NCBI GenBank assembly: GCA_007693585.1
Contig: REDH01000147.1
Span: 1 to 64,000, forward strand
Source of the DNA: Deltaproteobacteria bacterium
GTDB taxonomy: Bacteria; Myxococcota_A; Bradymonadia; REDH01
Direction of reading: 5' to 3'
DNA: 64,000 bases
The translations under genes were made by a program, and so were the position numbers. Under the pieces are notes generated by a model. It did not search any database and was not told the origin of the DNA. It was given only the letters and a program-made list of their open reading frames with translations. Below are positions 54,149 through 57,373 of this stretch, one piece after another (position 1 is the first letter of the stretch; each line of letters begins with the position of its first letter).

Positions 54149-54259
54149 CCGCCCTCCCGCGACGCCCCCCTGGCCGGAGGCGACGTGTTCCGGACTCGGC
54201 CAACCCACGGCGCTGCCTCCGCGCGGCGTGCCCGGCTCCACCCATCGAAGGAGAATCCC

Positions 54260-54502
54260 ATGGCCCGCAAGCCCCGCCCCATCCCTGGCGTCCGGCGCAA
54301 GAAGACCTGCCCGTTCCTCGCCGAGCCGTCCCTGCGCATCGACTACAAGGACGTGGCCCTGCTCAAGAAGTTCGTCTCGCCCCGCGGGAAGATCCTCCCG
54401 AGCCGCATCACCGGCGTCTCCGCCAAGTACCAGCGGCAGCTCGCCACCGCGATCAAGCGCGCACGCCAGCTCGCGCTGCTGCCCTACGAGGCCAAGGAGT
54501 GA
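54260..54502 (+). CDS. rpsR: 30S ribosomal protein S18
   Basis: 80 residues. KKTCPFLAE followed by [14 protein letters not shown] and [10 protein letters not shown], then [20 protein letters not shown], is the bS18 consensus. The strong AAGGAG lies six bases before the ATG. The gene stands apart from rpsF/rplI, its usual operon partners. Its stop codon overlaps the GTG of a lipoprotein gene (GTGA). Confidence 0.97.
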
Positions 54503-55572
54503 GCCGCGGCGGCCGGCTCCCCGCCGCCGCCGTCCTCCTCACCCTCGGGGCGCTCGCGATGGCCGCCTGCGGCCGCACGCAGGCGCCCCTCTGGACCCCA
54601 CCGGGGCCCACACCGGCCCTCTTCTGGGAGGCGGACGGAGCGCTCCCCGCGTTCGATTGGCCCCTCCCGGCCGACGCGCGGATCACCGAGCCCGCCGCAA
54701 GCCTGGCCACCGTCGAACGGGCGCTGATCGAGCGCCTGACCGGCTTCGTCCGCCAACCGCGCGTCGCCGAGCGGGTCATCCAGGCCCGGCCTGACGACCC
54801 CTTCGCCGTCGCATGGATCTCCGCCCACGAGGGCCGGGGCGCGCGCGGCACCCTGCACCACGACATCGTCGTGCTCGTCGGGAGACCCACCGCCGACGAC
54901 ATCCCCCGGCTGCTCGACCTCTCCCGCACCATCCATCAGCAGGACCACGGCGACGATCCGCGCCGCGTTCACCTCTTCGCCGCAGGACCCGTGCCCGAAC
55001 GGGTCGTGTACCTCTTCCGTGACCACTGGAGCGCCGACCTCGAGCGCTGTCTCGCAGCGGTCCCGAACGCATCCGAAGACCTTGTGGCGATCGAGACCTG
55101 CCTCGATCGAGTGGGCTTCTCCCCGCGCGATCCCGAGACCGGACGCCTCGACCCCCACCGCTTCGACCTGCTCTGGCGCGCCCTTCCGGGGCGTCCGCCC
55201 GCTCCGGTGCTCGACCCGCCGGAGAACGACAGAACCACCCCCGAGCGGGAACGACCCCCGGTCGCGACCTGCCAACCGCGCCGCGGTGACCCCTGCACCA
55301 GCGCGGAATACGCATGGGAGTTCGGACCGTTCATGACATTGCGCGCGCTCGGCATCATGCTCACTGCGTGGGCGGTGGAGCGGTGGCCGCGGCTCGAGGA
55401 GACGCCCGTCGACGACGCCCTCGCCGTGCACGGCGCACTGCAGGACCCCGTCCGAGAACAGGTGATCCGGCCAGCGGACTTTCCGCATCAGGCCTGGCGG
55501 GCCGGACTGGCCGCCCCCTTCGCCGCCTGGATCGACGTCGTGTCGGCCCGGCTCGACCCACCCCCCGGTTGA
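54499..55572 (+). CDS. Lipoprotein of unknown function, coupled to rpsR
   Basis: The 357-residue product from GTG 54499 has a signal peptide ending AMAAC, a lipobox (Cys near 24). The mature part is a mixed, acidic, Trp- and Pro-rich domain with three later cysteines ([16 protein letters not shown], and the pair in [10 protein letters not shown]). I do not recognise it. The GTGA overlap with rpsR means it is translated with a ribosomal protein; GAGG upstream, inside rpsR, can serve as ribosome-binding site. The start could lie later, but the signal peptide begins right here. Confidence 0.8.
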
Positions 55573-55591
55573 TCACGCACCCGTGGCTCCC

Positions 55592-56344
55592 ATGTCCGCC
55601 CTCCGACGATACCACCGGGTCTCCCGGGAATTCGGCAACAGCCTCATCCTGACGGCGCCGATCTTCGTGCTCTACCAGATCGGCATCCTGTTCACCGACG
55701 GATGGCGCAACGGTGTCGACCTGTTCTCCGGCCCCGTGATGCGCCTGCTCGGCGGAAGCCTCCTCGGGTACACGGTGCTCAACCTGCTGATCCTCGGCGT
55801 CTTCGTGGGGCTCTACCTCAAGCGCCGCGAAGAGCGAACCCTCGACGGACGCACCTGGGCCCTCCTCATCGTCGAGAGCACCGCGTGGGCCGTCGTCATG
55901 GGACTGTTCGCAGGAAACCTGCTCTTCCAGCTCGGATTCCGCCCCCCCCTCGCCGCCGGTCTCGAGGCCATCCCCGCGGCCACCGGGCTGCCGGCCATGG
56001 GCGTGTTCGACGCCTTCGTCCTCAGCCTCGGCGCAGGCGCGTGGGAAGAGCTCTTCTTCCGGCTCATCCTCCTCGGCGGCATGCTCTGGGGATTCAGGCG
56101 CCTCGGATGGCGCCCCTGGGTGGCCCTCGCGACCGCCCTCGTGCTCAGCAGCGTCATCTTCTCCGCCTTCCACTACGTGCCCATCGGCATGGAGTCCTGG
56201 CAGGTGTGGAGCTTCATGTTCCGATTCGTCCTCGGCATCTTCCTCGGCGTCCTCTATCTCTGGAGAGGCTTCGCCGTGGCCGTCTACGCCCACGCCATCT
56301 ACGACATCCTCATCCTCGTCCCCCGCGCCATCGTCGGAGGATGA
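55592..56344 (+). CDS. CPBP-family intramembrane metalloprotease (CAAX/Abi type)
   Basis: A 250-residue protein with about six to seven transmembrane helices and the catalytic motifs of the family: WEELFFR (EExxxR), FSAFHY (FxxxH) and the last-helix HAIYD (HxxxD/N type). Such proteases process prenylated or membrane-bound substrates or bacteriocin-type peptides; the target is not known. I use ATG 55592; GTG 55583 is in frame nine bases earlier. The stop codon overlaps the next ATG (ATGA). Confidence 0.9.
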   Translation: MSALRRYHRVSREFGNSLILTAPIFVLYQIGILFTDGWRNGVDLFSGPVMRLLGGSLLGYTVLNLLILGVFVGLYLKRREERTLDGRTWALLIVESTAWAVVMGLFAGNLLFQLGFRPPLAAGLEAIPAATGLPAMGVFDAFVLSLGAGAWEELFFRLILLGGMLWGFRRLGWRPWVALATALVLSSVIFSAFHYVPIGMESWQVWSFMFRFVLGIFLGVLYLWRGFAVAVYAHAIYDILILVPRAIVGG

Positions 56345-56493
56345 ACCCGCCCAGGACCCCAGCCATGGCCTACCTCACCCTCGACGAGTGGCTGTTCACC
56401 CTCCTGCTCATCGGCATCGTCTTCGGGGTCGGGCTCATGCCGAAGCTCGCCTCGGCCGTGATCCGCGCTACCCACGACGATCCGCAGCAGTAG
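56341..56493 (+). CDS. TatA-like small membrane protein
   Basis: 50 residues from ATG 56341 (overlapping the protease stop codon) or 42 from ATG 56365. A short polar start (LTLDEWLFT) leads to one hydrophobic helix (LLLIGIVFGVGLM), then PKLASAVIRAT and a polar tail. The order helix, Phe-Gly, Met/Leu-Pro, amphipathic helix is that of TatA/Hcf106 (FG..LP.L). The tail is much shorter than in TatA, so it may be a TatE-like or unrelated micro-protein. The coupling to the CPBP protease suggests a substrate or cofactor. Confidence 0.62.
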   Translation: MNPPRTPAMAYLTLDEWLFTLLLIGIVFGVGLMPKLASAVIRATHDDPQQ

Positions 56494-56548: not shown

Positions 56549-57373
56549 TCAGGGGGAAGGCGGCCGTCGCCCCGTGTCCTCGCGCCAGGGCAGGGCCGGT
56601 CCCGTGCGCCCCTCCCGGGCCTCGAGCCACCAGCAGGCCGCCTGGCGAACGGCCGGGTGAACGTCGTTGGCGTTCATCAGCCGGTGCTGCAGCGGCGCCG
56701 AGAGCGTGGGCAGGATGCGCAGGGCGAGACCTGTTGGACCAAACGGATTGCTCGCCATCGCGAACCGGATGTCCATGCTCCGGAACCAGCGCGGCTCCCG
56801 AGCCACGGTGCGCAGCACCTGCGCGCGGGTCGGGCGCCGCGTGACCACCGTCATGATGTGCTGCGGCAGAATCCGAGGATTGGCGCACAGCCGCTCCACG
56901 ACGAGCGGATGCTCGTCGTGGAGAAGCCGTTCCAGATACTGGGGATGCCAGCCGGACGCCCGCGCCCGCCGAACCCCGAGCGGCTCCCGCATCTGCTCCC
57001 GTGTCGCCGTCACCCGATCCCCCGGCTGCCGCGCCGGCGGCGGGTCCAGCAGAAACCACCCCACCCCGTGCAGCCCATGCCGACGGGCATGCAGGTTCAT
57101 GGCCTCCACCCGCAGGCCGAGCACCCCGTCCTCGTCCGCCCGATCCACCGCCTCCGCCAGCGAGAGCGCGAACTCCGACGCATCCGGATCACCGAGCACC
57201 GCACGATGAAGCAGCGCATCGACATGGAGCGCCGCCACGTCCGCCTCCACCAGCCGGAGGTGTCGATCCACCTGCGTCCGCCGCAGCGGGGCGTCGGCCA
57301 CGCTCAGCACCCGCAGGAGCCAGGTCTCCGCCTCGTGCGGATCCTGGCGGCTGTCCTCTCCCGAGTCGCTCAT
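56549..57373 (-). CDS. Unknown helical-repeat protein
   Basis: The 274-residue soluble protein has no signal peptide. Several stretches look like degenerate HEAT-type or leucine-rich-variant repeats (HPLVVERLCANPRILPQHI, VLRTVAREPRWFRSMDIRFAMASNP, HRLMNANDVHPAVRQAA). Here the asparagine-proline pair after each helix is typical of such variants. I do not know a function. It stands alone between convergent and divergent neighbours. The start ATG 57373 lacks a good ribosome-binding site. Confidence 0.7.
   Translation of the reverse strand: MSDSGEDSRQDPHEAETWLLRVLSVADAPLRRTQVDRHLRLVEADVAALHVDALLHRAVLGDPDASEFALSLAEAVDRADEDGVLGLRVEAMNLHARRHGLHGVGWFLLDPPPARQPGDRVTATREQMREPLGVRRARASGWHPQYLERLLHDEHPLVVERLCANPRILPQHIMTVVTRRPTRAQVLRTVAREPRWFRSMDIRFAMASNPFGPTGLALRILPTLSAPLQHRLMNANDVHPAVRQAACWWLEAREGRTGPALPWREDTGRRPPSP

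Follow-up and report, generated by a model that had tools for sequence, protein, structure and literature searches.

A CPBP/Rce1-like intramembrane protease and a microprotein of the TatA family, designated T3, are encoded side by side in the window, the 64,000-nucleotide stretch of contig REDH01000147.1 analyzed here, and conservation of this pairing across the class (Bradymonadia) suggests that a helix from a protein-export family has been reused as a protease partner. The first-pass annotation had described a CPBP protease and a TatA-like microprotein coupled to it. Both genes are found where it placed them, and the TatA-likeness and the coupling are borne out by homology, phylogeny and conserved gene order. 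Our preferred reading, given a probability of roughly 0.4, is that T3 would be an accessory subunit with a single membrane span, acting on a partner with several spans, which here is the protease, and that at least in the window's own family it would no longer build pores.

The protease gene (55592..56344, plus strand) encodes 250 amino acids, with an alternative GTG start at 55583. In a Pfam scan its product scores 48.1 bits (E 1.4e-12) against PF02517 (Rce1-like, CPBP), exceeding the curated cut-off of 22.4 bits. The motif set of CPBP/Rce1-like proteases, EExxxR, FxxxH and HxxxD/N, is complete. EExxxR (E152-R157, 56045..56062, plus strand) is invariant among 16 aligned orthologs, as are the F and H of FxxxH (F190-H194, 56159..56173, plus strand) and the H and D of HxxxD (H234-D238, 56291..56305, plus strand). 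Because these catalytic motifs are kept, the protease is probably active. An AlphaFold model is all-helical, with a mean pLDDT of 87; comparison with the PDB gave no match, either by Foldseek with the model or by profile search with the CPBP alignment. The protein resembles myxosortase MrtX (NF040593) in being a CPBP-type protease of the Myxococcota, but identity with MrtX is not supported, as an NCBIfam scan found no NF040593 match for it and the nearest MrtX-like gene of the genome lies on contig 139. That gene (G000:C139:4869-5828), another of CPBP type, gives the best match to the MrtX model in the genome, below the cut-off, and matches like it occur in 54 of the 58 genomes searched.

Upstream of the protease, genes resembling those for ribosomal proteins L28 (53693-53932, minus strand) and S18 (54257-54502, plus strand) are divergently arranged. 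Between the S18-like gene and the protease lies a lipoprotein-like gene (54499-55572) whose first bases overlap the former, so these genes on the plus strand may form one transcript. A minus-strand gene at 56549-57373 has a sub-threshold HEAT-repeat match. Its order relative to the protease and T3 is kept in the sister genus, and a gene for a regulator of PHB accumulation follows it.

The small frame, whose stop ends at 56493, can be read as 50 residues from 56341 or as 42 residues from 56365. The 42-residue form (56365..56493, plus strand) is more likely, because T3 in four same-family relatives starts within two residues of the position of the second ATG, because a putative Shine-Dalgarno-like AGGA (56353..56356, plus strand) lies 8 nt before that ATG, and because this start yields the numbering E8 and F20-G21, the latter pair in agreement with E. 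coli TatA. Within the family, the T3 N-termini compare as MLNLYLTLDEW versus MAYLTLDEW. The longer form would add eight residues, MNPPRTPA (56341..56364, plus strand), an open extension that is absent in relatives and is present only with the start that overlaps the protease gene as ATGA. The range of 42-50 residues given in the first-pass annotation therefore narrows toward its lower end, and the ATGA overlap, which needs the upstream ATG, is unsupported by relatives. With the 42-residue start, 20 bp separate the two genes.

Conservation, together with leave-out profiles set against shuffled sequences, rules out T3 as a chance open reading frame. Against TatA-family profiles built without any row from the window's family, the 42-residue protein scores 16.0 bits with the T3 profile and 19.2 bits with that of housekeeping TatA, ranking first in both among 777 window ORFs; none of 10,000 shuffles (5,000 full and 5,000 region-wise) reached its score. 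In the sister genus, sampled by four genomes, pN of the frame (0-0.12) is lower than pS (0.12-0.30). The protein presents, in order, E8, a membrane helix (about residues 9-20), F20-G21, M25-P26 and a short second helix, and the E and the G are invariant across the T3 alignment. Of the TatA-like order first proposed, helix, FG and MP are thus present, while the second helix is short and only weakly amphipathic. Pfam and NCBIfam scans of the microprotein itself gave no Tat match. T3 forms of 36-53 residues can escape family profiles, as the window's own does, and at that length can probably be missed by gene calling as well.

Full-length T3 proteins of 64-94 residues occur in many relatives, and most match the Pfam model TatA_B_E. 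Among 16 aligned T3 sequences, 12 match TatA_B_E (best 1.9e-10) and 12 match the NCBIfam model tatAE (best 6.4e-12). When solved structures were searched with the T3 profile, the best matches were TatA proteins.

A sample of 57 genomes, Lujinxingia and Bradymonadales included, represents the class. An ortholog of the CPBP protease occurs, one each, in 22 of them. A search for small ORFs next to these genes, as had been recommended, finds a TatA-like gene adjoining the ortholog in 21 of the 22, so that the pairing is a conserved one and the refuting outcome named in the first-pass annotation, lack of conservation, did not occur. The small gene is downstream on the same strand in 20 genomes, directly in 19 and after a 0.6-kb insert in G052; in G047 it lies divergently upstream. 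The insert (L056, ~1355-1950) contains what seem to be repeated GC-rich pieces. In the twenty-second genome, G010, T3 lies far from the protease and adjoins a gene for a four-helix protein; the class assemblies are incomplete, so single gene absences carry little weight. With the small protein as tblastn query against 58 genomes, matches appear directly behind the CPBP gene in four same-family genomes, and weak matches appear at the same CPBP-adjoining place in several others. The link is kept in families f1 (the window's), f4, f5 and f7, which otherwise have different neighbors. Families f1, f4 and f7 show the protease with T3.

Family f5, which includes Lujinxingia vulgaris (Bradymonadales), adds a four-helix membrane protein of 147-174 residues to the protease and T3. 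Its gene, represented by L067:6985-7446 in Lujinxingia vulgaris with family members in 20 other genomes, occurs in all 21 f5 genomes but nowhere else in the class, and it usually adjoins T3. The AlphaFold model of this protein has a pLDDT of 80, and no match was found for it in Pfam, NCBIfam or, by Foldseek, the PDB. In six f5 genomes (G030, G032, G040, G049, G050 and G051) T3 and the four-helix gene are present but the protease is missing, and in G046 the four-helix gene is seen alone. T3 therefore occurs in three settings: with the protease alone, with the protease and the four-helix protein, and with the four-helix protein alone.

A profile search of genome contigs with the CPBP alignment returned 80 loci. 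Fifteen belong to the class and all of these have T3, although many come from the same genomes and are not independent evidence. No TatA-like frame adjoins the CPBP gene at any of the 65 loci outside the class, which come from other Myxococcota, Planctomycetota, Armatimonadota and further groups; three of these loci end within 160 bases of the gene. The relatives from other Myxococcota and Planctomycetota (L069-L135) belong to the same protease subfamily, 28-43% identical to the window's protein, but have other neighbors and no adjoining TatA-like gene. These results rule out the pairing as a general trait of the CPBP subfamily. In anammox planctomycetes (L105, L112, L117-L119, L123, L125-L129), genes resembling UbiX and the signal peptide peptidase SppA, and often one resembling MazG, lie downstream of the CPBP relative.

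The observation that no other tat gene is present holds for the window, but not for the genome, where contig 92 carries the housekeeping TatA and contig 217 carries TatB next to TatC. T3 as the housekeeping TatA of this genome is ruled out accordingly. TatA-family and TatC genes are located elsewhere in 30 of 30 well-assembled relatives as well, and T3 was not found beside tatC. A maximum-likelihood tree was built from 68 proteins (29 T3, 9 TatB and 30 TatA). All 29 T3 rows fall on one side of a branch with support 98/92, the 9 TatB rows group together at 98/93 and the 30 TatA rows at 80/86, the small number of alignment columns limiting resolution inside each group. With 40 core columns only, T3 stays together at 98/99 and TatB at 100/99, ruling out a clade made by the C-terminal tail; its unity across families likewise rules out a recent duplicate of TatA. 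The very short T3 rows (the window's family, G038 and G052) were first chosen by their place beside the protease, and the tree and the leave-out profiles provide an independent check on them. Because the T3 proteins group in a clade of their own, separate from the housekeeping TatA and TatB proteins, T3 is a third, old paralog of the TatA family. It has shrunk in the window's family. Orthologs, leave-out profiles and tree together place the window protein in the TatA family (PF02416) by descent, as a variant in a new setting; the absence of the FK motif is why we do not class it as a functional TatA.

T3 resembles TatA/TatE (PF02416, TIGR01411) in its short N-terminal membrane helix, polar residue 8, F20-G21 and helix after the hinge, as well as in the family-model matches of most full-length members. 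It differs in forming a separate clade and in having a CPBP protease gene, not tatC, as its linked neighbor; in the window's family it differs further by a truncated second helix and the lack of the FK motif. Where E. coli TatA has F39/K40, the window protein has D39-P40. FK-like pairs are seen in 25 of 30 housekeeping TatA proteins versus 10 of 29 T3 proteins. In G038 and G052 only 16-20 residues follow FG, and the amphipathic helix is nearly all gone. The TatA amphipathic helix and FK motif are reported to be essential for transport (PMC13186574). A pore-forming role thus seems unlikely for T3 of the window's family, in which the FK motif and a large part of the second helix are missing, and for the truncated proteins of G038 and G052, although in these lineages the gene remains next to the protease.

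In the mechanism we propose, the short membrane helix of T3, with its conserved E8, would dock on a partner with several membrane spans (the protease in this case), much as TatB and TatA do on TatC. The helices of both are described as docking on TatC with position 8, polar in E. coli TatA (Q8) and TatB (E8), meeting a TatC polar cluster (PMC5201420). Docked T3 might stabilize the protease or control the access of membrane substrates to it. The helix could also serve, or have been taken over by, the adjoining four-helix protein in the Lujinxingia family; the three settings of T3 suit a helix that works with multi-span partners. The six genomes that keep T3 and the four-helix protein without the protease count against the accessory-subunit reading, and because of them T3 is not strictly a protease subunit. 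Adjoining genes can also share regulation without contact between their products. We hold more tentatively a stronger form, in which a helix of TatA type has parted from the Tat translocase and T3 has become a dedicated regulatory or substrate-presenting subunit of the CPBP protease, joined in one family by the four-helix protein as third partner. T3 would then represent a protease subunit derived from a protein translocase.

Proteins of TatA type are usually regarded as Tat components, and T3 could be a specialized one, an additional TatA or a counterpart of TatE in E. coli. It would then work in the TatABC translocase and be transcribed together with the protease, and might couple folded-protein export to membrane processing. 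Its descent, with the TatA_B_E matches and the solved-structure result, agrees with this, as does an acidic residue at position 8, where the polar cluster of TatC is met (PMC5201420). Extra TatA paralogs that have separate roles are known (PMC5777986, PMC4148689), and in some relatives full-length T3 retains an FK-like pair, so that it could still function together with TatC. We nevertheless consider the explanation rather unlikely, given the separation of T3 from tatC, the loss in the window's family, G038 and G052 of parts reported as essential (PMC13186574), and neighbors that are a protease and an uncharacterized membrane protein.

A somewhat less probable explanation makes T3 the substrate of the protease, which would activate, inactivate or remove it. 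Proteases and single-span substrates are often encoded together, which favors this explanation. There is also a direct precedent for an intramembrane protease acting on TatA: the rhomboid AarA activates TatA of Providencia stuartii by removing eight N-terminal residues (PMC3712462), and the 50-residue form of T3 would carry an extension of exactly eight. That extension is absent from relatives, however, and so is probably not translated; six genomes retain T3 without the protease, and no conserved motif resembling a cleavage site was recognized. The two systems share the association of an intramembrane protease with a TatA-family protein, but AarA, a serine protease, belongs to another family and cleaves the housekeeping TatA, whereas the pair in the window joins a CPBP-type protease to an extra paralog without a conserved N-terminal extension.

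It is improbable that the two genes are adjoining and co-transcribed yet work apart, in an order merely inherited. All cases do come from one class, where shared descent explains much, the genes are far apart in G010, and the protease is gone in six genomes. Yet the link survives in f1, f4, f5 and f7 among otherwise different neighbors, and it survives both the 0.6-kb insertion in G052 and the inversion of one gene in G047. Among the roles first offered for the pair, partner fits best; a toxin/immunity system, in which small amphipathic T3 would damage membranes and the CPBP protein protect the cell, is very improbable even though some CPBP proteins are bacteriocin self-immunity proteins, because T3 is a TatA homolog, persists in six genomes that lack the protease and has the stable distribution of a resident gene.

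No paper on the pairing of a CPBP or CAAX protease with TatA was found in the literature searched, which covered few subscription papers. T3 tracks an intramembrane protease and not TatC, with much of its amphipathic helix lost in some lineages, and if the preferred accessory-subunit reading is true, this would reveal uses of the TatA membrane helix outside export. It would also provide a candidate cofactor or substrate for an uncharacterized CPBP protease, and a full-length version is present in named Lujinxingia species.
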